From the IMG/VR virus record IMGVR_UViG_3300010430_000425, positions 1 through 25,189 of that record: a stretch of DNA of 25,189 nucleotides. One strand, 5' to 3'. Shown piece by piece: positions 2,484-22,324 of the stretch; within the stretch, counting starts at the first letter, position 1; every line of letters begins with the position of its first letter. Under the pieces are notes generated by a model, which worked only from the letters and a program-made list of their open reading frames with translations, was not told the DNA's origin and did not search any database. Source of the DNA: a virus. A program made the position numbers and the translations under genes.

Positions 2484-2900
2484 TTATTCCCCTAATAGAG
2501 ATTTACTTATAGTTGATGCATCGTCGTCTGTACCTGCTAATGAGAATAGTCTTTTCTCTTCTTGAGATCTTCTTCTCTTAGTAGCTCTTACTCTAGCTGC
2601 TTCTGTATCTACCACAGGAGCTTGACCACTAATACCTGGCGCTGAAGATGATTCAGGTGGAGGTGGAGGAGCTGCTACAGGAGCTGCAGATGCAGTAGGA
2701 GCTGGAGGTGGAGCTGCTGGTGGAGGAGGAGGTGGAGGAGGTGCTACAAATCCTATAGGTGTTGGAGCACTAGGTGCGTCAGGAGCTAATGCCCCTCTTA
2801 CTACTGAACCAACTACCTGGCTTGCTACTTTTCCAACAGGACCTTTACCTTTACCGCCCTTGCTGCCTCCTTTACCGCCGCCTTTTCCACCGCCGCCCAT
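2484..2900 (-). CDS. Gly/Pro-rich T7 gp7.3-like tail assembly or virion protein
   Basis: A 138-residue low-complexity protein with three zones. The N-terminus is Gly/Lys-rich (MGGGGKGGGKGG), the middle is Pro/Ala-rich with runs of up to eight prolines, and the C-terminus is basic and ends ISKSLLGE. T7 gp7.3, a small tail assembly protein encoded just upstream of the portal, has the same layout: basic start, low-complexity middle, Arg/Lys-rich segment and short Ser/Leu tail. This gene also sits just upstream of portal. The tail motif recurs in the gene at 3718-4104 and in the micro-ORF at 4106-4147. The ATG is preceded by GGAAGGG. Polyproline runs normally need elongation factor P for translation. 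Confidence 0.55.
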   Translation of the reverse strand: MGGGGKGGGKGGSKGGKGKGPVGKVASQVVGSVVRGALAPDAPSAPTPIGFVAPPPPPPPPAAPPPAPTASAAPVAAPPPPPESSSAPGISGQAPVVDTEAARVRATKRRRSQEEKRLFSLAGTDDDASTISKSLLGE

Positions 2901-2903
2901 ATG

Positions 2904-3359
2904 CTATCCCTTCCTTACTTTCTTAATTTTAACATTACTTGCAGGTGAGTAACCTAAACTTGTAAGTCGTTTAGATATTGAGTTCTCGCTACTTTCAAAT
3001 AATACAAATATTTCTTTACCATGATTATGATATAAGTCTGATTCCGCAAACTTAACTAAATCACTAAATAAACCTTGTCCTCTAGCTTCTGGATGTAAGT
3101 AGAAAGCATCTCCGTGTGCTTCTTTTTCACCCATAAGTATAAATCCTAGATAACCATAGAAGTTATCGTCTTCATCTGTTATAAAGTACATATGATACCT
3201 ATTATCTGCAAACATCTTAGCGTAAGATGCTCTATGTATTTTAGGTGTCTTATATTGTTCAGATTTAGCTTCATCGTAATGAGCATCTAATACTTTAGAA
3301 TAATCATCAAACAGATACTTGTTCATCTGTTCTAAGTTAGCCTTGAAAAATTTTAACAT
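2904..3359 (-). CDS. GNAT-family N-acetyltransferase
   Basis: A 151-residue protein with the GNAT fold signature. A beta-strand pair (MYFITDEDDNFYGYLGF) is followed by AFYLHPEARGQGLFSDLVKF around residues 85-105. There R-G-Q-G forms the acetyl-CoA pyrophosphate loop (consensus Q/R-x-x-G-x-G/A) ahead of the following helix. Such enzymes move an acetyl group from acetyl-CoA to an amine; the substrate cannot be read from sequence. Acetyltransferases of this type recur in podovirus structural modules beside the portal. It overlaps the upstream GNAT-like gene by 23 bp. A virion or maturation role is possible but not shown. Confidence 0.8.
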   Translation of the reverse strand: MLKFFKANLEQMNKYLFDDYSKVLDAHYDEAKSEQYKTPKIHRASYAKMFADNRYHMYFITDEDDNFYGYLGFILMGEKEAHGDAFYLHPEARGQGLFSDLVKFAESDLYHNHGKEIFVLFESSENSISKRLTSLGYSPASNVKIKKVRKG

Positions 3360-3714
3360 ATGCTTTATCCGCTTCTTTATAATCTTTTAAATGGGTCTCA
3401 TCTATACTACTCTGTAGATATCTGAAATATTTAGGGTCTCTTAACTCGATGACTTCTGATTCTACATGTTGTATAAAATCTGCATTGTTACTGTCTAAAT
3501 ACACTATATCTGCATATATCTGACTAGTGTGGGCAAATAATGTAATGGATACGATCATAACGCCAACTATCTTGTCATCCTTCAGATCGAAATATATCTC
3601 TACGTCTCCGTCATATTCCCAAAAACTTTCTAAATGTTCTGTGCATCCTTTCGATTCAAAGTATTCTTCTATTTGTCTCTGATAATCGAAAACATTTGTT
3701 ATATGCATGTACAT
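3337..3714 (-). CDS. Divergent GNAT-like protein lacking the CoA loop
   Basis: A 125-residue protein directly upstream of, and overlapping, the GNAT gene. It has the strand pattern of a GNAT domain (VEIYFDLKDDKIVGVMIVS, then IYADIVYLDSNN and a helix), but the R/Q-x-x-G-x-G loop is replaced by NADFIQHVESEV. If it is a GNAT homologue it has probably lost normal acetyl-CoA binding and may act as a partner of the next protein. The assignment to the fold is by shape only; otherwise it is unrecognised. The ATG at 3714 is about 10 nt after GGAGA. An in-frame ATG two codons later is further from this SD. Confidence 0.5.
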   Translation of the reverse strand: MYMHITNVFDYQRQIEEYFESKGCTEHLESFWEYDGDVEIYFDLKDDKIVGVMIVSITLFAHTSQIYADIVYLDSNNADFIQHVESEVIELRDPKYFRYLQSSIDETHLKDYKEADKAYVKIFQG

Positions 3715-3717
3715 ATA

Positions 3718-4104
3718 TTAATCGTCTCCTAATAGACTAGTTGGTCCACTGCTACCTTTTGAGTTTAGAGATAATAAACTACTACCTCCTCTTCTACCTT
3801 TTCTTCTTTTAGATCCTTGAAGCCCTGTTGCAACAGTATCTTCTGATGCTGACGCTCCTTGTTTAATTGATGGAGCTGATGATTTTGTAGGACCTGTTTT
3901 AGTCGGTGTTACTGAAGCTGGAGCTGGAGTCGGTGCTACTGGGCCTGAAGCTGGTGCTGATGCTACTGGACCTGAAGTTGGTGAAGCAGTACTCTCGCCA
4001 GAAAGTTCTTGACGCCTTTGAGCTGATGCCTCTTTTATTATAGCTGCAATAGGTGCAAATGTTGGTTGAAATGCTGCAAGTGTTCCTGGTGCAAAACCTC
4101 CCAT
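3718..4104 (-). CDS. Second gp7.3-like Ser/Pro/Ala-rich virion-type protein
   Basis: A 128-residue protein with a hydrophobic start (MGGFAPGTLAAFQPTFAPI), a Pro/Ala/Ser/Thr-rich disordered middle (about residues 40-90), a basic cluster (SKRRKGRRGG) and a Leu/Ser tail ending TSLLGDD. The basic cluster, the SLLSL segment and the LLG ending copy the C-terminal design of the gene at 2484-2900 and of T7 gp7.3. Two such genes flank the GNAT pair. The start is supported by GGAGGCGAG. Function is inferred from position and layout only. Confidence 0.5.
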   Translation of the reverse strand: MGGFAPGTLAAFQPTFAPIAAIIKEASAQRRQELSGESTASPTSGPVASAPASGPVAPTPAPASVTPTKTGPTKSSAPSIKQGASASEDTVATGLQGSKRRKGRRGGSSLLSLNSKGSSGPTSLLGDD

Positions 4105-4105
4105 A

Positions 4106-4147
4106 TTACTCGCCTCCTAATAAACTTTTACTAATAAATCCTGACAC
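4106..4147 (-). CDS. 13-codon micro-ORF consisting of the ISKSLLGGE tail motif
   Basis: A GTG at 4147 lies 7 nt after a good Shine-Dalgarno (AGGAGA) and one base after the stop of the upstream membrane protein gene. It opens a 13-codon frame reading MSGFISKSLLGGE. Eight of these residues repeat the C-terminal ISKSLLGE of the gene at 2484-2900. It may be a true micro-peptide, the C-terminal extension of the upstream gene reached by a +1 frameshift near TTT-AGG-AGA, or the remnant of a lost gp7.3-like gene. In-frame stops upstream exclude a longer ORF in this frame. Confidence 0.35.
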   Translation of the reverse strand: MSGFISKSLLGGE

Positions 4148-4148
4148 T

Positions 4149-4415
4149 CTAGTTTCTCCTAAATAATTCTGTTACGCGGTCTTCTATTAATCTCATTCCC
4201 GCTTTAGCTCTGTAAAAATTCTCTAATCTATTGAACATACAATATGTACCTCCTATTAAAGGCGATACTAAGAATGTTATTAAAGGCATCCATATGTAAA
4301 ATGGTTCCCAAACTATAACACAAGGTATAGATATAAGATTTAACACTATAAGCATCAAATGGGTTATAGCTACAAACTTAGCTAAGCAATAATATAATAC
4401 CGATGTATATTCCAA
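4149..4415 (-). CDS. Small membrane protein, DUF2784-like
   Basis: An 88-residue protein with two or three hydrophobic segments (roughly residues 5-30, 35-50 and 50-62), then CMFNRLENFYRAKAG. The Cys, Leu-Glu-Asn, Arg and Ala-Gly pattern after the last membrane span resembles the bacterial DUF2784 family (C-x-L-T-x-L-E-N-x-L-R-x-x-A-G), whose role is unknown. The start is TTG at 4415, supported by GGAGTAGGG just upstream. It overlaps the preceding 50-aa gene by 38 bp. A lysis or membrane-remodelling role is possible, but nothing in the sequence decides it. Confidence 0.6.
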   Translation of the reverse strand: MEYTSVLYYCLAKFVAITHLMLIVLNLISIPCVIVWEPFYIWMPLITFLVSPLIGGTYCMFNRLENFYRAKAGMRLIEDRVTELFRRN

Positions 4416-4530
4416 ACCCTACTCCAAATATCTGTATACGTTCATTTAATGGAGCTTCTTCATATTCATTGACGTAGATTGCGCCTAATATAACTAATAT
4501 GAATAAAAACAGTGTGAATAGTCCTGTCAT
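4378..4530 (-). CDS. 50-aa membrane protein
   Basis: The ORF starts at an ATG preceded by GGAGGAAGGT. The protein has an N-terminal membrane span (residues 2-19, LFTLFLFILVILGAIYV), a short charged loop (NEYEEAPLNER) and a second span to the C-terminus (IFGVGFGIYIGIILLLS). It lies between terL and the DUF2784-like gene and overlaps the latter by 38 bp. It is unrecognised. The hairpin-like topology is compatible with a small holin or accessory lysis protein, but this is a guess. Confidence 0.6.
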   Translation of the reverse strand: MTGLFTLFLFILVILGAIYVNEYEEAPLNERIQIFGVGFGIYIGIILLLS

Positions 4531-4578
4531 ACCTTCCTCCAATTGACTACTGTAAGTATAGTAGCTACTGAGCTTATA

Positions 4579-5946
4579 TCAAGCAAACAGGTCATAATCT
4601 GATATTACAGATACTCTACCACTGTTAAATTGATCAGCACTGGTTATATCTTCAGATATAGCTTCCATCCTTATAGCATCAGCAGCATGAGAACTTCCAT
4701 CATGTACTGGTTCTTTAATGAATACTTGTCTTTTTTTATCGTACCTTCTATGGTACAACTCTAATCTCTTAATACCTACTAAACATGCACCTGCATCAAA
4801 ATGATATCTAGAGAAGCGTGAACGTACAGCATTAATACCATCCTGTACTGGCAATCTATCCAGCACCTCTACATTTGCTGACATCTGAGTCTGTCTTAAC
4901 ATATCTTCGAACATATCAGCTGTAGCCATTCCTGACTGTATATTTCTCTGCCTAGCATCATGAGGTAAATAATGTGTTCCATAATTATACCCTTTAGCTT
5001 CTAGTACTTTAATATAGTGTTGTAAATTCTTTCCATTGTCTTCATAGTAATCTACGAATGATATCTTGTTCCCTGACTTTTGTCTGAACCATATAGCTGT
5101 AGAATCATCTACACCTAAATCCCAAAAGGTATCTACTGTTAATACATCATTATAAATTACATCTGTAATTCTATCTTCTTTATATGCTTGTTCTATTTGG
5201 TCTGCATAGTACGCACCTTTCATACCAACTGTAAAGTTACAGCCATACTCTCGCTCTATATCATCCCATGTGGTCATACCAGTCTTAACTTGATCCTCAA
5301 AGTAATCTTGAGGGTGTACGTGTACATAGTTAGGTCTGTCTGGATATAGTGCTTGTTTAAATGATACTATCCATTTAGGAGATTCTTTCGCTCCTAGGAA
5401 TAAATTATAGAAGTGGTTTCTACCGTTGGGGGTGGAATTAATTATATGCCAACAACCCTTACGTCTTAAAGCAGGTAGTAATGCTCTATACGCCTCTACA
5501 TCTGAGAAAGCAAATTCAGATAGTACTACACCCATAGGAGTTACACCTCGTATAGCATTTGGGTTTCTATCTAAACCTAAGACTTGAATAGTGGAAGAGA
5601 CACCTAATTTATCTTTACTTATAGTTATAGACATCTCTTGATTTGATATTCTACCTATGAATGGTTCTGGAATCATATCCAGTAGTTTAGTACCATCTTC
5701 TAATACCTTAGTCCATAAAGCCCTTTTAGCTTCTTCAGCTGTTGGGAATATGTAGAAGTAGTTACCAGATACTTGACATGCTTCTTTACACATGTAAGCG
5801 AAGCAACTTGTATCTTTACCTATTTGTCTAGGCCATACTAGTAAGGCTTTCCTTTCATCTAAGTGTCTCTTAGAATCCAGCTCTTTAAAGACATCTAGTT
5901 GATAGTCTCTAGGTATGAAGTTGTGAGGTACTGTTAAAGTATCCAT
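4579..5946 (-). CDS. terL: Terminase large subunit (packaging ATPase and nuclease)
   Basis: A protein of about 455 residues, the motor that pumps DNA into the procapsid and cuts concatemers. The N-terminal ATPase has a Walker A variant (WPRQIGKDT) about 40 residues in, a Walker B strand ending in acidic residues (GVVLSEFAF) and a motif III segment INSTPNGRNHFY. The C-terminal RNase H-like nuclease shows FWDLGVDDSTA, LPHDARQRN and HDGSSHAADAIRM, supplying the metal-binding acids. The start chosen is ATG 5946, with GGAAAGG six bases upstream. An in-frame ATG at 5961 has no clear SD. The 46-aa gene before it overlaps by 13 bp, suggesting coupling. terS lies about 3.1 kb upstream rather than adjacent. 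Confidence 0.94.
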   Translation of the reverse strand: MDTLTVPHNFIPRDYQLDVFKELDSKRHLDERKALLVWPRQIGKDTSCFAYMCKEACQVSGNYFYIFPTAEEAKRALWTKVLEDGTKLLDMIPEPFIGRISNQEMSITISKDKLGVSSTIQVLGLDRNPNAIRGVTPMGVVLSEFAFSDVEAYRALLPALRRKGCWHIINSTPNGRNHFYNLFLGAKESPKWIVSFKQALYPDRPNYVHVHPQDYFEDQVKTGMTTWDDIEREYGCNFTVGMKGAYYADQIEQAYKEDRITDVIYNDVLTVDTFWDLGVDDSTAIWFRQKSGNKISFVDYYEDNGKNLQHYIKVLEAKGYNYGTHYLPHDARQRNIQSGMATADMFEDMLRQTQMSANVEVLDRLPVQDGINAVRSRFSRYHFDAGACLVGIKRLELYHRRYDKKRQVFIKEPVHDGSSHAADAIRMEAISEDITSADQFNSGRVSVISDYDLFA

Positions 5947-11655: not shown

Positions 11656-11781
11656 ATGAGTGAAGATACAGAACAAGGTTTGAGCAACTTACAACTACTA
11701 CAAGAGAAATATGAATCAGAAATTGAAGTAGATTGTTATTTAGCAGAGTTATTAGCAGAGATTAAAGGAGAAGTAAAATGA
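11656..11781 (+). CDS. 41-aa acidic helical protein
   Basis: An ATG after GAGAGGTGG gives a short Leu/Glu-rich helix (LQLLQEKYESEIEVDCYLAE). It ends in an ATGA overlap with the ClpP-like gene, so the two are probably co-translated and the peptide could be an accessory to it; that link is inference. Confidence 0.5.
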   Translation: MSEDTEQGLSNLQLLQEKYESEIEVDCYLAELLAEIKGEVK

Positions 11782-12533
11782 AAAGTATAATTAGAAATAT
11801 AGTCTATGCTTTTATCTATGTATTTGGCGGAATATATGTAGCTATAAAAACTCTAGTACTTAGAGGTATATTTTATGGAACCTTATTTCTAGTCGGATGG
11901 TTACTAATAGTTAAATTTCTACCTGTTACACATACAGTAGATATCAAAGCTATTTCGCATGACCCTCATAGTTACGTACTTATATTATATGCTCAAGCAA
12001 TACTAGCAATTGCTGATGAAGATGATACAGTAATACTTAGAATATATAGTCCAGGAGGCTCAGTACTAATATGTGCTGATATAATTAACAGTATAAAAGA
12101 CTCGTTAGCACATACTATTAGTTATAACGAAGGTATTGCATATAGTGCAGGTGCTGTAATAGCAATGTCTACAGATGAAGTTAAATCAGCTTATATGTCT
12201 GAATACCTATTCCATAGACCTAGAATTATGATTATGGGAATGCCTGTATTAATTAGTGATGAGTTACCAACAGTACTTATGTTAAAAGAAATGATTCACA
12301 ACGATGTATTCCAATACTTAACTTTAATAGAACAGTATAGATATCAAGCATTAATGGATGATGTTATCGTTACAGGTAGACAGATAAGAGAAAGAACAGC
12401 TAAAGGTGGATTTACAGATGCTGAACGTTACCAACAATATGTTGAATTAGTTAAGTATTCAAATGATAACCCACCAAAGACTATACAACAGAAGTTAGAT
12501 GAAACACGTAGTAAGTCAAAAAAGAACAAATAA
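11778..12533 (+). CDS. Membrane-anchored ClpP/SppA-like serine protease
   Basis: A 251-residue protein. Two membrane spans (about 8-26 and 30-48) are followed by a ClpP/crotonase-fold domain. VILRIYSPGGSVLICADII (residues 85-103) matches the ClpP/SppA oxyanion strand and Gly-Gly turn. AYSAGAVIAM puts the likely nucleophile at Ser123, and LFHRP puts the likely general base at His146, a spacing close to that of ClpP. The C-terminal 100 residues are helical and basic. The order resembles SppA or NfeD-type membrane proteases more than soluble ClpP. The third catalytic acid is not certain. Possible roles are cleavage of host membrane proteins or partnering with the phage ClpX-like unfoldase at 21323. 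The start overlaps the upstream stop. Confidence 0.72.
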   Translation: MKSIIRNIVYAFIYVFGGIYVAIKTLVLRGIFYGTLFLVGWLLIVKFLPVTHTVDIKAISHDPHSYVLILYAQAILAIADEDDTVILRIYSPGGSVLICADIINSIKDSLAHTISYNEGIAYSAGAVIAMSTDEVKSAYMSEYLFHRPRIMIMGMPVLISDELPTVLMLKEMIHNDVFQYLTLIEQYRYQALMDDVIVTGRQIRERTAKGGFTDAERYQQYVELVKYSNDNPPKTIQQKLDETRSKSKKNK

Positions 12534-12535
12534 AG

Positions 12536-12586
12536 ACTTGCTTTTTGGATAAAGGTGTTCTATAATTATATTAAGAGGTGATAAAT
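12536..12586 (+). promoter_or_regulatory. Early sigma70 promoter cassette P3
   Basis: TTGCTT (12538-12543), 17 bp, TATAAT (12561-12566) and an AAGAGGTGAT SD. It is a near-exact copy of the block at 10900-10950 and drives the SbmA-like gene. Confidence 0.85.
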
Positions 12587-13429
12587 ATGAAAATAAAGAA
12601 TATAAAAAACTGCAAACCACTCTTAGTAGTTATAGGACTTATCCTTTTAGGAGAAAGTATATTTACAGGGCTTATACCTCACTCTAGAGGATACTTGTTC
12701 GGATTATTACAATCTCAAACAGGCCCTATATACTTGGCTTTAGGTGTATACTTGACTAATTACTTATGTTTAGATTTCTTTTGCGCTGTAAAAGGCTACG
12801 CTATAATTAAGACATCTTTACTATTTAGAACAGCTAGAACAGAAGAAACTATTAAGAAAGTTAAAGGAGAGGTAGAGAACACTCCTCAAAGAATTCAAGA
12901 AGATATCAAGTTAAGCTATGAAAGTAGGTTCATAGTATGGTCTGAGTACATAATATCAGGGATAATTGTTATACAATTGATAATTATTAACTTGTCTCAA
13001 CCAATATTAATCTTCGCGGCCTTGACATATGCTGGAATAAGTGTCATAATTGCATTAAGGTTTAACCCGAAGTTAACTAGAGCAGAAAAAGAAGTGCAGA
13101 GAACAGAAGCTACATATAGACACAGTCTTATAGACAGCTTAAGCTTAACATGCTTACCATTAGCTAACAAAGCTAACCTTATGGCAGCTAAGATAAGAAC
13201 GCACTACTTACTATTTACTAGACTTCAGTTAGGAGTTATGTCAGTATTACCATATGTTGTATTGATACCAAGCTTATTATCAGGAGATATAGATTTAGGA
13301 ACATTGGTTAAGCATCAGGCTACATTTGCATTAATAGTAGTAAACGCAAGTATATTAATACAGTTATATCCTAAGTTAGTTAAAGGTAGAGCATCAGAGG
13401 AAAGAGTAAGAGAGGTGGAAAATGATTAA
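12587..13429 (+). CDS. SbmA/BacA-like membrane protein (transporter domain)
   Basis: A 280-residue protein with about six hydrophobic segments (near 11-29, 47-66, 116-136, 138-157, 211-231 and 244-262). Between spans two and three is VENTPQRIQED (residues 96-106), matching the E-x-x-x-Q-R-[IV]-Q-E-D signature of SbmA/BacA and of ABCD-type transporter membrane domains. EVQRTEATYRHSL (169-181) matches the second family motif R-V-E-A-x-Y-R-x-x-L. E. coli SbmA is about 406 aa and imports peptide antibiotics such as microcins using the proton gradient. This version is shorter, and no nucleotide-binding domain is nearby. The start ATG 12587 has SD GAGGTGAT; the GTG at 12578 lies inside it. Its role in a phage is unknown; it could interfere with the host transporter or the envelope. 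Confidence 0.72.
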   Translation: MKIKNIKNCKPLLVVIGLILLGESIFTGLIPHSRGYLFGLLQSQTGPIYLALGVYLTNYLCLDFFCAVKGYAIIKTSLLFRTARTEETIKKVKGEVENTPQRIQEDIKLSYESRFIVWSEYIISGIIVIQLIIINLSQPILIFAALTYAGISVIIALRFNPKLTRAEKEVQRTEATYRHSLIDSLSLTCLPLANKANLMAAKIRTHYLLFTRLQLGVMSVLPYVVLIPSLLSGDIDLGTLVKHQATFALIVVNASILIQLYPKLVKGRASEERVREVEND

Positions 13430-14078: not shown

Positions 14079-14164
14079 TAGATGTTATAGGAATGATGTG
14101 GGTAGCTATGCATTTTATAGTTATAATAGGATTTATAGTACTAGTCACTAAAGATTTACGATAG
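14075..14164 (+). CDS. 29-aa membrane peptide after the holin
   Basis: The ATG is in an ATGA overlap with the holin stop. The frame encodes one hydrophobic span (MMWVAMHFIVIIGFIVLVT) with a short charged tail. The coupled start suggests a holin partner such as an antiholin or pinholin-like peptide, but size and sequence alone do not prove it. Confidence 0.5.
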   Translation: MIDVIGMMWVAMHFIVIIGFIVLVTKDLR

Positions 14165-14210
14165 AATTCTCGCGACGAGGATATTTTACTTAACACCGTA
14201 GGAGGTAATT

Positions 14211-14669
14211 ATGAGTAATACAACAGAGCACGCAACAGGTATAGGCAGTATTAAGTTTTTAGCAGCTGCAAGAGCACTAAATAATCAGTTCACTAACAAG
14301 ATGGAATTTTCTTGTAGGTTAGTACTAGATGCTAACGATAAGTGTGTTGAACATATTAGAGGCATCAACAGTGCTAAGATAACAACAAAAAATGCAGGAG
14401 AAGGTCAAGTAAACATCAACTTTACTTCAACTTTTGCACCTAAAGTACTAAATAAGGACAACGAAGTTCTTTCAGGTGAAGAGATTCCATATTTCGATGG
14501 AAGAACCGACACCGGAACAGCAGCTGTTACTTATAAAGTAGTAGACTATGGAGACGCAAAAATAATTCGCCTCAGTGGTATTAAGCTACTAGACTTAAGC
14601 ATTGTTGAGAAGGAAATGCGAGAAAGTTCTATGGACGTTACTTTAGAACAACTTAAAAATATAACTTAA
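14211..14669 (+). CDS. Probable ssDNA-binding protein
   Basis: A 152-residue protein placed just upstream of DNA polymerase, the usual place of T7 gp2.5-type proteins. Predicted strands (KMEFSCRLVLDAND, AKITTKNAGEGQVNINF, AAVTYKVVDYGDAKIIRLSGI) suggest an OB-like barrel. The phrase with a P-x-V-x-x-x-D-x-x-V opening, a Gly-rich turn and an I-x-L-x-G-I-K-L-L closing strand recalls phage ssDNA-binding families. It lacks the strongly acidic C-terminal tail typical of many SSBs, ending EQLKNIT instead. The SD is TAGGAGGT. Fold and role are inferred. Confidence 0.5.
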   Translation: MSNTTEHATGIGSIKFLAAARALNNQFTNKMEFSCRLVLDANDKCVEHIRGINSAKITTKNAGEGQVNINFTSTFAPKVLNKDNEVLSGEEIPYFDGRTDTGTAAVTYKVVDYGDAKIIRLSGIKLLDLSIVEKEMRESSMDVTLEQLKNIT

Positions 14670-14724
14670 CTGGGAGGTGATCAGAAGTCGAAGAACCTCA
14701 ACTTGAGTATAAATAGAGGAAAAT

Positions 14725-14745
14725 CCTAGACTTAAAACGTCTAGG
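14725..14745 (+). other. Perfect 7-bp hairpin between the SSB-like gene and polymerase operon
   Basis: CCTAGAC (14725-14731) and GTCTAGG (14739-14745) flank a 7-base A/T-rich loop. TACTAATTTTAAG follows, a poor terminator tail. An orphan SD (GGGAGGTGAT) lies at 14671-14680 without a convincing ORF. The hairpin may process or attenuate the message ahead of DNA polymerase. Confidence 0.5.
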
Positions 14746-14891: not shown

Positions 14892-16951
14892 AAATTAAAG
14901 CTATAGATTTCGAGACAAGAAGAATCAGCGAGGAAGAGCCTTGTCCTACGCCTATATGCTTATCATACTATTACTTAGAAGATGGAAAGGAGCGAAAAGG
15001 GATTGTCACAGGACTTGACAGCATGGAGGCATTCTTATTCGACATACTGAGTTGCAACTGTTTAATTGTAGCTCACAATATGTCCTTTGAAGCGAATGTA
15101 ATAGATACACACTTCCCTAAACTTAGGAAGTTAATGTATAGAAAGTTTGATTTAGGTCAAATGATATGTACGGAAATAATAGAGAAATATATAGATAATA
15201 CTAGAAAAACGACCATGAGAATGTTCTCACTATCTACACTGGTCATGAATTATTTTAATACAGATATATCTGAAGATAAAAAGAATCCTGATGCATGGAG
15301 ATTAAGATATCATGAATTAGAAGATGTAAAGCTAGAACAATGGCCTGAAGAGGCTAAGAGATATGCTATAGATGATTCAGTATGGACATATAAGATATAT
15401 ATAAGACAGTTAGAATCTAAAGTAGACGCTAGAGAAAGCATAGCTGCTGGTTTCTACCTAAACAAAATAGGATTAGCAGGTGCAAATATAGACCATGAAA
15501 GAGTATTAGAACTAGAATGTGAAATAAACGATTTAATCAAATTACCTCAAGCTTATCTAGAAAAGAAAGGTATATTAACTAAATTAACAACTGGTAAGTA
15601 TAAAAAGAACTTAAAGAAATTTCAAGAGCTAATTGCAGAACAAGTGAAAGAACCTGAAAAGACCGTTAAAGGAAAGATAGCTACAGGAGTAGAGGTTTTA
15701 GAGCGATATATAGGTAAGGTAGATGTTGAGTCAGAACTATATGCTATCTTGAAGGAGTATTTAAATATAATGGAATATGAGAAGGTGAGAACTTCTTATA
15801 TACCTAGACTTAAATTAGCTAAACCTTTAATAAGGTCTACTTATAAACCTTACATAACTTCAGGAAGAACTTCCTGTTCAGGTACTAGCTTCTACCCTTC
15901 AGTTAATATGCAACAAATGCCTAGGAGCGTAGAAGGTGTTACGTGGGATATCAGAAACTGTTTTGTTCCAAGACCTGGCTATAAAATATGCAGTATAGAT
16001 TACAATGGATTAGAGCTAGCTAGTACAGCTAATCGACTATATGATCTAACAGGTAGACAAAGCATGCTAGATATCGTCAACAAAGGAGAAACACCTATAG
16101 ATTTACACAGTATGTTAGCTTACAGGATAATGAACATTAAAGAGAAATCCAAAGAAACATACGAAGGCTTCATGTCTAAGAAGAAAGAAAAGAAGTATGC
16201 AGAGTACAGACAACTAGCTAAACCTATTAACCTAGGTTTCCCAGGTGGAATAGGATATGACACTATGAGAACATTACTAGCTAAAGAAGGGATATTCCCT
16301 AAACTTGTCGTACTTGAAACAGTACCATATGAAGATAGAATATCGTGGAAAAGAAATAAAGCTAAGAGAGAAGGATACCCAGTTAGAATAAGAAGAGTTG
16401 GGTTTAGAGAGTTTCAACTAGTATACGACGAGCTGGTCCTACTAAAAGAGGAATTGTTCGCTCTTTACCCTGACCTAGAGTACTTCTTAACTGAAGGACA
16501 TAACGAGTACTTAACAGGAGAGACTAAAAACATTAAAAATGAATTTGGAGAATGGGAAAAAGAACCTATGTATGCATATACAGTAGGAGAACTTAACGTG
16601 AATTACTGTACATATACTAAATTATGTAATGGTATACTTATGCAAAGCCCTTCAGCTATTGGTGCTAAGAAGGCAATGGTTAAAATAATAAGTAAGTACG
16701 GTAACTCTGTTGCAGTTAAGCCTTTAGCTTTCATACATGATGAGATATTATTTGAAGTACTTGACAATAATGAAAAGTATGCTATAATTAAAGATATAAG
16801 TCAGATATTGATTGAAGAAATGCAGACTGTATTAAAGAGCGTAAGGATAGCAGTAGAGGCAGAGTTATTCCCTTACTGGAAGAAATCAGGAGGCGAATGG
16901 TCTAAAACTTACTTTAAAGGACCTAAAGACACAGATTTAAAGGAGCTATAA
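14888..16951 (+). CDS. Family A (T7-like) DNA polymerase with 3'-5' exonuclease domain
   Basis: A 687-residue replicative polymerase. The N-terminal exonuclease has DFET (residues 7-10), NMSFEAN (64-70) and YAIDD (159-163), corresponding to Exo I, II and III. Exo II has Glu where Asp is common. The polymerase domain has TSGRTSCSG leading to motif A IDYNGLEL (370-377), motif B built on R441-QLAK-PINLGFPGGIGYD, and motif C FIHDEILFEV (615-624) with the catalytic HDE. Length is close to that of T7 gp5 (704 aa). A possible thioredoxin-binding insert is not evident. It copies the phage genome. A consensus sigma70 promoter lies inside its 3' part at 16761. Confidence 0.95.
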   Translation: MKIKAIDFETRRISEEEPCPTPICLSYYYLEDGKERKGIVTGLDSMEAFLFDILSCNCLIVAHNMSFEANVIDTHFPKLRKLMYRKFDLGQMICTEIIEKYIDNTRKTTMRMFSLSTLVMNYFNTDISEDKKNPDAWRLRYHELEDVKLEQWPEEAKRYAIDDSVWTYKIYIRQLESKVDARESIAAGFYLNKIGLAGANIDHERVLELECEINDLIKLPQAYLEKKGILTKLTTGKYKKNLKKFQELIAEQVKEPEKTVKGKIATGVEVLERYIGKVDVESELYAILKEYLNIMEYEKVRTSYIPRLKLAKPLIRSTYKPYITSGRTSCSGTSFYPSVNMQQMPRSVEGVTWDIRNCFVPRPGYKICSIDYNGLELASTANRLYDLTGRQSMLDIVNKGETPIDLHSMLAYRIMNIKEKSKETYEGFMSKKKEKKYAEYRQLAKPINLGFPGGIGYDTMRTLLAKEGIFPKLVVLETVPYEDRISWKRNKAKREGYPVRIRRVGFREFQLVYDELVLLKEELFALYPDLEYFLTEGHNEYLTGETKNIKNEFGEWEKEPMYAYTVGELNVNYCTYTKLCNGILMQSPSAIGAKKAMVKIISKYGNSVAVKPLAFIHDEILFEVLDNNEKYAIIKDISQILIEEMQTVLKSVRIAVEAELFPYWKKSGGEWSKTYFKGPKDTDLKEL
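16761..16788 (+). promoter_or_regulatory. Consensus sigma70 promoter inside the polymerase gene
   Basis: TTGACA and TATAAT, both perfect hexamers, are spaced by 16 bp within the coding sequence. The predicted start is about 155 bp before the next gene, so it could boost the operon that follows. It may also arise by chance from the Asp-Asn-Asn and Tyr-Ala-Ile-Ile codons. Confidence 0.5.
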
Positions 16952-16952
16952 G

Positions 16953-17186
16953 ATGAAGATAATAGTAGAATACGACCTGAGTAAAGATCAAGACTTCAAA
17001 GATTACGAGATACATAAGAATGCTGATGGTTTACTATCCGCAATGTGTGAATTTGATACATACTTAAGAAACAGGTATAAGTACCCTGAAAACCAGATTT
17101 CAGACCAAACTCACGAGGCTATAGTAGAGATTAGAGATAAGTTTTACGACTGTATAGCTGAGTATAATTCTAGTTTAGATTGTTAA
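16953..17186 (+). CDS. Conserved phage protein next to DNA polymerase (77 aa)
   Basis: A small acidic alpha/beta protein. It begins MKIIVEYDLSKDQ, continues with EFDTYLRNRYKYPEN and ends in a helix (AIVEIRDKFYDCIAEYN). Similar small proteins with a D-x-Y-L-R-x-x-x-K-Y block are often encoded beside polymerase or primase genes in phages; their function is not known. The start is one base after the polymerase stop and uses AAGGAG. Confidence 0.55.
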   Translation: MKIIVEYDLSKDQDFKDYEIHKNADGLLSAMCEFDTYLRNRYKYPENQISDQTHEAIVEIRDKFYDCIAEYNSSLDC

Positions 17187-17195
17187 GGAGAAGAT

Positions 17196-17429
17196 ATGAG
17201 TTACGATGATACTAAAGTAAGAAAAGGACAAGCGTATAACCTAGCAGTTATGACTGCAATAGCTGATGGTAAGCATCACGATAACGTGTATATTACTAAA
17301 CAGTTCTTGAGACACTATCAATTTGCAGCACTATGTCAAAAAGGTGATGTAAATCAATTAGCTGCAATAACTGAATGTCCAAAGATAATAGAACTATTTA
17401 ATGAAGTTACTAAATCGTTAGGAGGTTAA
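17196..17429 (+). CDS. Conserved phage protein with KGQAYNLAV motif (77 aa)
   Basis: A soluble helical protein opening VRKGQAYNLAVMTAIADGK, followed by a YITKQFLRHYQF helix. The K-G-Q-A-Y-N-L-A start is familiar from small replication-region proteins of tailed phages, without a known role. The SD is AAGGAG. It belongs to the polymerase operon. Confidence 0.55.
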   Translation: MSYDDTKVRKGQAYNLAVMTAIADGKHHDNVYITKQFLRHYQFAALCQKGDVNQLAAITECPKIIELFNEVTKSLGG

Positions 17430-18949: not shown

Positions 18950-19049
18950 GCCAAGTTGCAGATATTGCGAGATAATTCGCACATTAGGGGTTATATTAAT
19001 GGTTATAATCAACATTTCAACATTATTAGTAGTTTCGGGGGTATTATGA
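18942..19049 (+). CDS. 35-aa Cys-x-x-Cys membrane peptide
   Basis: An ATG inside the end of the sigma gene opens a short frame with SCRYCEII and one hydrophobic span (LGVILMVIINISTLLVV). It overlaps the next start in ATGA fashion. Its size makes it uncertain, but the double overlap fits the compact operon. Confidence 0.45.
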   Translation: MDKPSCRYCEIIRTLGVILMVIINISTLLVVSGVL

Positions 19050-19645
19050 GAAGAAGTAACACATGTTTAGCAGTGATAAGAGACGATAAAGGGACACTAT
19101 GGTTTGCAGGAGACAGAAGAATATCATGGCATTTCGGCAAAGCTCTTAAGTCACCTAGACCTAAGATAACTTACAGAAATAAAGTACTGTTAGCAGGTAC
19201 AGGTACTAGTTGTATATGCGATTTAGTAACTGATCAATTTGATATACCTATTAAAACAGATCAGCAAGATACTTTCAATTACATACATACAACATTCGTA
19301 CCTAAGCTAATTAAATGGTTAAGACAAGAAGGTTGGGTATCTGAAGGTGAACGTAAACTATCTACTTCTGACGACGACGGTAAATCTGAATTAGGTGCTA
19401 CAATATTAATAGGTGTAGAGTCAGACTTATATGAACTAGATATAGATACTAACATGATATGTGCAGATGTTATAGATGCTCCTTATGCTGCAGGTTGTGG
19501 TGGTGCTCTAGCGCATGGTTCGCTCCTTACTACAGAAAGCTTAGACTACTCTCCTAAGAAGAGACTGACTATAGCTTTAAAGGTAGCAGCCAAAGTGTCA
19601 CCTGGTTGTGATGACAACGTAGATATCTTAAACAATAGGAAGTAA
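19046..19645 (+). CDS. HslV/proteasome-like Ntn-hydrolase peptidase
   Basis: A 199-residue protein. After a five-residue leader (MRRSN) comes Thr6, the expected catalytic N-terminal threonine after processing. Asp23 in FAGDRRIS and Lys40 in RPKITYR fall at relative positions 18 and 35, near the proteasome/HslV Asp17 and Lys33. LLAGTGTS follows the Lys. The C-terminal half has LGATILIGVESDLYELD, YAAGCGGALAHGSLL and ALKVAAKVSPGCDDNVDIL, matching the HslV pattern of I-G-S-G-G and the final helix pair. Host HslV is a double hexamer fed by HslU. The start ATG 19046 follows GGGGG by five bases. A partner may be the ClpX-like ATPase at 21323; that is inference. Confidence 0.78.
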   Translation: MRRSNTCLAVIRDDKGTLWFAGDRRISWHFGKALKSPRPKITYRNKVLLAGTGTSCICDLVTDQFDIPIKTDQQDTFNYIHTTFVPKLIKWLRQEGWVSEGERKLSTSDDDGKSELGATILIGVESDLYELDIDTNMICADVIDAPYAAGCGGALAHGSLLTTESLDYSPKKRLTIALKVAAKVSPGCDDNVDILNNRK

Positions 19646-20564: not shown

Positions 20565-21321
20565 ACCAAAAATACTATTTTACGATATAGAGACAACACC
20601 ACTACAAGCGTGGATATGGCGCCCTGGTAAACAAGTAGTAAGGCCTGCTCAGTTAGTAGAAGGGTACACTAGAAATGATATTATATGTATATCTTACGAG
20701 TGGTTACACACTAATGAGAAGGGTACACTACATTGGGGTTATGAGAAACAGAACTCTAAACAAATGGTTAAAGACTTTACCAAGATTTGCCATGAAGCAG
20801 ATTTAATAATTGGTAAGAACAATAAGAGATTCGATGATAAACATCTTAACTCAGCTAGGTTATGGCACGGTTTAGCAGGTGCTCCTGACCTTTTAAGTAA
20901 GGTAGATGATCTAGAGACTCAAATGAGAAGACACTTTGCTTTAGCCTCATATGGCCTTGATTACTTCTCTGAAGAATTAGGCTTTGGTGGTAAAACTAAG
21001 ATGTGCTTTGACGATTGGATAAATATAGTCTATACTAAAGGTAAGGCCTCTTATAATAAGATGCTAAAATATTGTGCTAAAGATGTACATGATACTAAAT
21101 TGATATGGAAGCATTGCGAAAAGCATTTCCAACCTAAGTTTAACTACTCCACATTTAGTGGTAACATGGTTTGTAAAGTGTGCGGTAGTAAGAACATTCG
21201 CAAGAACGGAACTAGGACAAGTACTTCAGGGATGGTGTCTCAGAATTATTTCTGTACTGACCATAACGGTTATGCAGGGAAACTTAATTTGAATGCCCGT
21301 AAGCCGGTGCTTAGGAGTTAA
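20557..21321 (+). CDS. DnaQ-like 3'-5' exonuclease with C-terminal zinc ribbon
   Basis: A 254-residue RNase H-fold exonuclease. ILFYDIETTP (6-15) supplies Asp10 and Glu12, a middle LIIGKNNKRFDDK segment gives the second motif, and YCAKDVHDTKLI the last acidic motif. After about residue 205, MVCKVCGSKNIRKNGTRT and NYFCTDHNG form a zinc-ribbon-like end like those of transposon and IS proteins (C-x2-C plus C/H). This could bind DNA or RNA. As the polymerase at 14888 already has an exonuclease domain, this one may act in repair or in mRNA or host DNA turnover. The start is ATG 20557, with AGGAG six bases upstream. Confidence 0.8.
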   Translation: MSKPKILFYDIETTPLQAWIWRPGKQVVRPAQLVEGYTRNDIICISYEWLHTNEKGTLHWGYEKQNSKQMVKDFTKICHEADLIIGKNNKRFDDKHLNSARLWHGLAGAPDLLSKVDDLETQMRRHFALASYGLDYFSEELGFGGKTKMCFDDWINIVYTKGKASYNKMLKYCAKDVHDTKLIWKHCEKHFQPKFNYSTFSGNMVCKVCGSKNIRKNGTRTSTSGMVSQNYFCTDHNGYAGKLNLNARKPVLRS

Positions 21322-21322
21322 T

Positions 21323-22324
21323 ATGATAAACGTAGACTTAATAAAGAGGAGTATATCGCCTAAAAAGATATATGACGAGATGAACAAGACTATAGTAGGT
21401 CAGCATAAAGCTAAAAAGCTAGTAGCCAATGCAGTGTTCCTACACATAGTTAGGTTCTTTCAAGCTCAAGATCAAAATAGGAACGACCTTAAAAAGTCTA
21501 ACGTACTATTGATGGGTCCTACAGGCTGTGGTAAAACCTTAATGGTTAGAGAAGCTGCAAGAGCCGTTAATACAATACTAAAGTTAAAAGGCTTATGCCC
21601 AGTCGCTGAGATAGATTGTACATCTATAACTCCAGAAGGCTGGTCAGGAGACGACTTAAGTGATATGTTAGAAGAACATGTTCTAGATATAAAGTCTAAA
21701 GACCCATCAGCTACTGCTGGTTCTACAATAGTCTTCTTAGATGAGTTCGATAAGTTATGTAAACCTGCTATAGGAAGTGGTGGAACTGATCATAATAAGA
21801 ATACTCAATATAGTTTACTTAAGATAGCTGAAGGTAAGAAGATAATAGGTAAGAAGATAGACTTTCATACTGATAACTACTTATTCATATTAGGTGGTAA
21901 CTTCTCAGAGATAAGAGATATGAGAGCTGAAAGGAAAGCAAATAAGTTCATAGGATTTAACGAACCTAAAGTTAAGAAAGAGTATATAGATTACCACGTA
22001 GAACTTGAGAAGTTAGGTATGTCTACTCAAATGATAGGACGTACACCTTATGTAGGTGAGTTAGACCAATTGAACGCTAAGGAACTTTTAACTATATTAG
22101 ATATGCACTTGATCCCTGAGTACCAAGATACTTGGAATTACTTAGAGAAAGGTGAGATCATAGTTCCTACTAAAGCGCGTAATAAAATGGTTAAGCAGTG
22201 TATTGCTAGAAAGACTGGAGCTAGAGGGTTACAAACCGATATGGCTAACTTTGTAGAAGACACTATATTTGATACTGAATTTAACTTAAATGCGAGGCGT
22301 GAAGATGACATTAAAAAGATATAG
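21323..22324 (+). CDS. ClpX-like AAA+ unfoldase with IGF loop, no zinc domain
   Basis: A 333-residue AAA+ protein aligned by eye to ClpX. It has KIYDEMNKTIVGQHKAKKLV, Walker A GPTGCGKT (65-72), a pore loop GWSG (106-109; ClpX GYVG), Walker B FLDEFD (138-143), YSLLKIAEGKKI, a sensor segment FILGGN (188-193), IGF (210-212) in KFIGFNEPKV, the Arg finger region MIGRTP (237-242) and sensor 2 ARKTGARGL (295-303). The N-terminal zinc-binding domain of ClpX is absent, and there is no HslU-type I-domain between the Walker motifs. IGF is the loop that docks ClpX onto ClpP. It should unfold proteins; its partner may be host ClpP or a phage peptidase. The start ATG 21323 follows GGAG. Confidence 0.88.
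   Translation: MINVDLIKRSISPKKIYDEMNKTIVGQHKAKKLVANAVFLHIVRFFQAQDQNRNDLKKSNVLLMGPTGCGKTLMVREAARAVNTILKLKGLCPVAEIDCTSITPEGWSGDDLSDMLEEHVLDIKSKDPSATAGSTIVFLDEFDKLCKPAIGSGGTDHNKNTQYSLLKIAEGKKIIGKKIDFHTDNYLFILGGNFSEIRDMRAERKANKFIGFNEPKVKKEYIDYHVELEKLGMSTQMIGRTPYVGELDQLNAKELLTILDMHLIPEYQDTWNYLEKGEIIVPTKARNKMVKQCIARKTGARGLQTDMANFVEDTIFDTEFNLNARREDDIKKI

Follow-up and report, generated by a model that had tools for sequence, protein, structure and literature searches.

A zinc-less, ClpX-derived AAA+ protein of phages and its recurrent association with proteasome-type peptidases

The ATPase gene and its product

The window, by which we mean the whole stretch of DNA analysed, is a viral contig of 25,189 bases with matches to portal, lysozyme, holin and small-terminase proteins; a near-identity search of phage records returned zero matches. 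Its structural genes are accompanied by a GNAT acetyltransferase gene at 2904-3359 (-). An open reading frame at 21323-22324 (+) was confirmed and encodes a 333-residue AAA+ protein of the ClpX family. The ATG at 21323 is preceded by AGGAG, 5 bases upstream, and has better support than an alternative in-frame ATG at 21293, which would lengthen the ATPase. The features of the gene are as follows.

21323-22324, +: zinc-less ClpX-like AAA+ unfoldase, 333 residues (NCBIfam ClpX, PDB sequence and fold matches, AGGAG)
21515-21538, +: Walker A, GPTGCGKT, residues 65-72 (G65, G68, G70, K71 and T72 invariant in the clade described below)
21638-21649, +: pore-1 loop, GWSG, residues 106-109 (Trp where ClpX has Tyr)
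21731-21745, +: Walker B, VFLDE, residues 137-141 (D140 and E141 invariant in the clade)
21950-21958, +: IGF docking tripeptide, residues 210-212, in an exposed coil (alignment with the IGF of ClpX)
22037-22042, +: arginine finger, GR, residues 239-240 (R240 invariant in the clade)
22217-22231, +: sensor 2, GARGL, residues 299-303 (G299 and R301 invariant in the clade)

Several lines of evidence identify the product. NCBIfam ClpX models matched it with E-values of 3.5e-47 and 3e-43, better than the HslU model (4.9e-21), although its scores lie far under the curated ClpX cut-offs (161.2 versus 359 and 148.4 versus 370.75 bits). ClpX was also the top match in a PDB sequence search (E 2.8e-31). 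A predicted model based on a 25-sequence alignment (pLDDT 90.6, pTM 0.87) had ClpX as its top fold match by both Foldseek and VIA-align, with VIA-align Z scores of approximately 28 to ClpX and 24 to HslU. The best PHROG match was phrog_4339 (E 1.4e-41), a family of unknown function which also matches the ATPases of two related phages, G092 and G093, and which includes zinc-type proteins. These results identify the gene product as an AAA+ protein derived from ClpX in which every motor motif is present. An earlier reading of this DNA, made from the sequence only, had listed the same frame, Walker A and B, GWSG, arginine finger, sensor 2 and IGF, all of which are present; it had also described a ClpX without its zinc domain, an aromatic pore residue changed from Tyr to Trp and an IGF that should lie in a surface loop, and each of these descriptions was borne out by the comparisons reported here and below.

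The position of the gene, within a cluster of recombination and nucleotide genes, might suggest a DNA-translocating or packaging AAA+ protein. We consider this scarcely credible: all close sequence and structure matches are to ClpX and HslU, Clp/HslU unfoldases and not packaging motors; conservation extends to the docking loop and to an aromatic pore loop; and the phage has separate terminase candidates.

Relative to bacterial ClpX (E. coli ClpXP, with structures in PMC7112951), the window protein has the same AAA+ core, Walker motifs, arginine finger, sensor 2, IGF position and fold. It differs in having neither the zinc domain nor the GGRKHP loop, in its pore residue, in a shorter docking segment and C-terminal tail, and in the profile scores given above. 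HslU possesses an I-domain and lacks an IGF loop; the window protein shows an IGF and, in alignments and in the model, no I-domain insertion.

A clade with a tryptophan pore and no zinc domain

A scan of viral contigs with the single protein recovered one relative, and alignments were needed to find more. Scans with two- and five-sequence alignments recovered 128 proteins, duplicates included, that are ClpX-like or related; cellular ClpX proteins from a scan of genome contigs served as a reference set only. Most of the proteins designated L014-L048, being short AAA+ proteins without the loop, were set aside, as were the HslU-like L033, L036 and L049. Nine proteins form the clade considered here: those of the window, L002, L010, L011, L012, L063, L064, L139 and the later-found G092. 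All nine are without the zinc motif, have a GWxG pore and keep [IML]GF.

The window protein begins about 10 residues ahead of the AAA+ core, with no zinc domain. A CxxC...CxxC zinc motif is near-general elsewhere, being found in 78 of 80 sampled cellular ClpX proteins and in 61 distinct phage ClpX proteins, that of G093 included. The pore-1 position is Trp throughout the clade (9/9), compared with Tyr in 60 of the 61 zinc-type phage proteins, the exception having Phe, and in 78/80 cellular ones. The RKH loop of ClpX (GGRKHP) is missing in the clade, appearing as a gap in the window alignment, and the tail past sensor 2 comprises 15-31 residues, as opposed to 37 or more in the others. The Trp proteins fell on one side of a branch both in a tree of eight of them without G092 (support 98/90) and in a tree with G092 and without L139 (100/99); since long branches meet in both trees, monophyly is provisional. 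The L139 contig carries, besides its GWSG/IGF ClpX-like ATPase, a GroEL-like chaperonin and two ClpP-like proteases, of which one has an N-terminus resembling a signal peptide (L139 loci 2637-4217, 1565-2296 and 4245-4922, all on the minus strand).

Peptidase genes in the company of the ATPase

Three further genes of the window are relevant to the ATPase.

19046-19645, +: proteasome/HslV-like N-terminal-nucleophile peptidase, 199 residues, candidate partner ring (phrog_1040, E 1e-11)
11778-12533, +: serine protease of the ClpP/SppA fold with N-terminal membrane segment(s) (PF00574, E 1.1e-8; hydrophobic segments)
12578-13429, +: SbmA/BacA-like membrane protein, possible peptide importer (PF05992, E 8.7e-8; a remote match, 32.4 bits against a cut-off of 24)

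A three-sequence model of the HslV-like protein (pLDDT 77.7) matches BPH (5ovt) and HslV with a probability of 1.00 and TM scores of approximately 0.6-0.7. Alignment with E. coli HslV shows the catalytic set Thr1, Asp17, Lys33 and Gly47 to be present, and T6, D23, K40 and G53 of the window protein are invariant in seven phage homologues. The homologues in L063, G092 and G093 begin Met-Thr. In the window protein a leader, MRRSN, precedes the Thr, such that removal of Met alone would not expose it; loss of the five-residue leader would make the conserved Thr6 the N-terminal nucleophile. A processed Thr is usually preceded by Gly, which the leader does not contain, and the window, L012 and L063 proteins have Gly-Cys-Gly-Gly in place of the Gly-Ser-Gly-Gly of HslV. 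Peptidase activity of the window protein is, for both reasons, not assured.

Five related phages with a ClpX-type ATPase each carry one or two proteasome/HslV-like peptidases: the window, G004 (L012), L063/L143 (L143 being G091; two contigs of apparently one phage, counted once), G092 and G093. L143/L063 keep the gene order of the window, namely YqaJ, sigma-like, HslV, RusA, an open reading frame, exonuclease, ClpX and dGTP diphosphohydrolase. In G004 there is a 38-bp overlap between the ATPase and HslV-like genes; one small open reading frame separates the pair from an M17 aminopeptidase gene downstream. Among 50 records, nearly all of them from the ATPase searches, M17 aminopeptidases were found in G091 and G004, and SbmA-like proteins in exactly three (window, G091 and G004), the same three that have the window-type HslV-like family. 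As a forward test, G092 and G093 were found only through their SbmA-like proteins; both encode a ClpX-type ATPase with IGF, and each has two Thr-first HslV-like genes. For three of these four genes the assignment is backed by phrog_1040 matches of 4e-6 or better; for the fourth it depends on motifs and alignment. As the G093 ATPase keeps the zinc motif and GYVG, the pairing extends beyond the Trp clade.

A ClpX-derived motor is thus repeatedly associated with a proteasome-type peptidase. The earlier reading had offered a phage peptidase as one possible target of the docking loop, and this part of it gains genetic support from the five phages. Several considerations bear on how the association is read. 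Firstly, absences of HslV-like genes in the three-sequence profile search are weak, since that profile missed the G092/G093 genes, which were seen by reading open reading frames; matches of a seven-sequence profile in G092/G093 are not independent, as the profile was built from those genes. Absence in L010, L011 and L064 is uninformative because these contigs end just upstream of the ATPase gene. Secondly, polymerase, exonuclease and RusA are common to several of the five phages, which share parts of a lineage, so that co-occurrence may reflect descent and not function.

No genuine ClpP was found in the five phages on the contigs examined, which are possibly incomplete; the search used profiles on four of the five, and on the remaining phage a profile for L063 and reading of open reading frames for L143. 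Three of them (window, L143 and G004) have the membrane ClpP-like protease, which the earlier reading had listed among the partners to be tried in structure prediction. Its ClpP fold and its presence in these three phages would accord with a membrane-bound ATP-dependent protease, and a second membrane segment is conceivable in the window copy, which would leave its domain cytoplasmic. Its relatives, however, look single-segment or signal-peptide exported, and it is absent from G092 and G093, which carry M48 proteases with signal-like N-termini instead. Given the one or two membrane segments at its N-terminus, we regard this protein as a very improbable partner.

The docking loop and its candidate partners

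IGF is the ClpP-docking motif of ClpX, and in the E. coli protein V274 provides a third ClpP contact. The window IGF aligns with that of ClpX, at the position of the docking loop; in the predicted model it falls within the coil that links helices 195-206 and 224-231, a low-confidence block (pLDDT approximately 62-79) of a confident model. Residues invariant in the nine clade proteins are those of the catalytic motifs, a few others that are probably structural, and G211 and F212. These last two are the only invariant loop positions (9/9), and adjoining ones vary freely. GF is conserved as strictly as the catalytic motifs across nine divergent proteins, so selection evidently preserves the loop for some contact that it makes.

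Other parts of the docking apparatus have diverged. The residue equivalent to V274, four past the Phe, is Lys in the window protein; this position is hydrophobic in 3/9 clade members, 47/60 zinc-type phage proteins and 64/77 cellular ClpX proteins (Fisher p 0.011 against phage and 0.003 against cellular proteins, uncorrected for kinship). The segment from the Phe to the arginine finger spans 27-28 residues in eight of the nine, compared with 31-40 in zinc-type phage proteins and 33-42 in cellular ones, and L063 has LGF for IGF. In E. coli ClpX, the substitutions I268L, F270L and V274A cause severe ClpP-binding defects, and changes in loop length lower ClpP affinity (PMC7112951). Taking the invariant GF together with the departures at the V274 position, in segment length, in the tail and at GGRKHP, docking thus appears to have been kept in principle and changed in detail. 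A loop which retains GF and has lost other ClpP contacts would amount to a natural experiment in docking specificity.

ClpX works without ClpP, for example on MuA, and the shortened docking segment and tail would fit weak or absent docking. The ATPase may on these grounds be a stand-alone remodeller, unfolding or disassembling complexes without a peptidase, with the neighbouring peptidases unrelated to it. We find this unlikely, as a strict GF in an otherwise variable exposed loop would have no obvious use without a docking partner, and peptidase genes recur with the ATPase.

Docking to host ClpP is the main and a serious rival to a peptidase of the phage's own. The IGF would dock host ClpP, and the HslV-like protein would act separately; the choice of substrates would be the phage's, since the ATPase has neither zinc domain nor RKH loop, and bypass of host adaptors would follow from the absence of the zinc domain. 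In favour of this are the known role of the motif, with its invariant G and F, and the many phages with zinc-type ClpX that encode ClpP. Moreover, a sister phage with the same kind of ATPase, L002, encodes a genuine ClpP (14158-14745) adjoining its endolysin gene; no HslV-like gene was found on its 17 kb. The L002 protein is approximately 72% identical to the nearest record in the phage collection and is probably a host capture; that record is an E. coli-like ClpP encoded on an Escherichia phage contig. L002 therefore carries a ClpP which the loop could use, and docking to a ClpP stays plausible. Against host ClpP stand the rarity of a hydrophobic residue at the V274 position, the shortened segment and the LGF of L063, the equivalent of which impairs ClpP binding in E. 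coli, as well as the linkage to HslV-like genes, which it leaves unexplained. Of the takeover that the sequence-only reading had proposed, what stands is a ClpX-type unfoldase that has no zinc domain and whose docking loop is exposed and conserved; host ClpP as the specific target has lost ground, given the departures at ClpP-binding features and HslV-like phages without genuine ClpP. We rate it as possible, with some doubt.

Our preferred reading, held tentatively, is that the ATPase serves as unfoldase in an ATP-dependent protease encoded by the phage, probably with the phage's own proteasome-type ring and possibly salvaging amino acids. A hexamer of the ATPase would pull proteins through its Trp-lined pore and feed them, unfolded, into a peptidase ring held by the [IML]GF loop, the HslV-like peptidase at 19046-19645 being the most likely ring; we infer that the two form one protease, which would be ATP-dependent and encoded by the phage. 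That the phages also have the SbmA/BacA-like protein and an exported or membrane protease, and two relatives an M17 aminopeptidase, suggests that this protease helps to convert proteins to peptides and amino acids during infection. As the motor, in relatives of this phage, usually travels with a proteasome-type peptidase, an importer-like protein and a protease that is exported, the phage may possess a protein-recycling kit of its own and not simply borrow the ClpP of its host. A role of this wider module in amino-acid salvage is the least certain step; if the module is real, some modest-sized phages would carry a salvage route from proteins to amino acids, a counterpart to the scavenging of host nucleotides that is already known.

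Such an arrangement would, in its strongest form, be a hybrid machine, in which a ClpX-type unfoldase has switched partner and an IGF-derived loop sits on a proteasome/HslV-type ring within a protein-to-amino-acid module. This we consider possible, though doubtful. HslU docks to HslV via C-terminal tails, and an IGF loop is not known to us to bind any HslV-type ring; retention of IGF is accordingly more simply explained by ClpP docking. The recurrent pairing provides a candidate unfoldase partner for phage proteasome homologues, and a test of whether an AAA+ motor can move from a ring of the ClpP type to one of the proteasome type or back.

ClpX-like proteins have been known from phages before, and so have proteasome homologues. 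Zinc-type phage ClpX proteins with their own ClpP (Bacillus phage G gp257/gp258, PA5oct, Lak and Atu_ph07) resemble the window protein as phage-encoded ClpX-type unfoldases with an xGF loop, but keep the zinc domain and GYVG and have ClpP in the genome. HslUV, PPH and AAH, as described in the available part of PMC8665760, share with the window a phage Ntn-type peptidase of the HslV/BPH fold. That part gives PPH, known here by description only, as approximately 140 residues without helix H2; the window protein, at 199 residues, is longer and has both helices predicted (55-64 and 73-94). The same part names no unfoldase partner for PPH or AAH. Other kinds of HslV-like gene are present in G025, G028 and G041, which are HslU-like records, and in G005, a 203-kb record with a zinc-type ClpX, which has two (C1:7125-7601 and 4216-4737, minus strand). 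A small protein in L061 (11723-12232, minus strand) with a signal-like N-terminus has ClpP-like GNYSMH and MMFH motifs and no Pfam match. The Thr-first HslV-like genes of G092 (L251:10457-11008 and 16886-17410) and of G093 (34572-35207 and 46683-47201) are in each case two divergent paralogues, which could make mixed rings.
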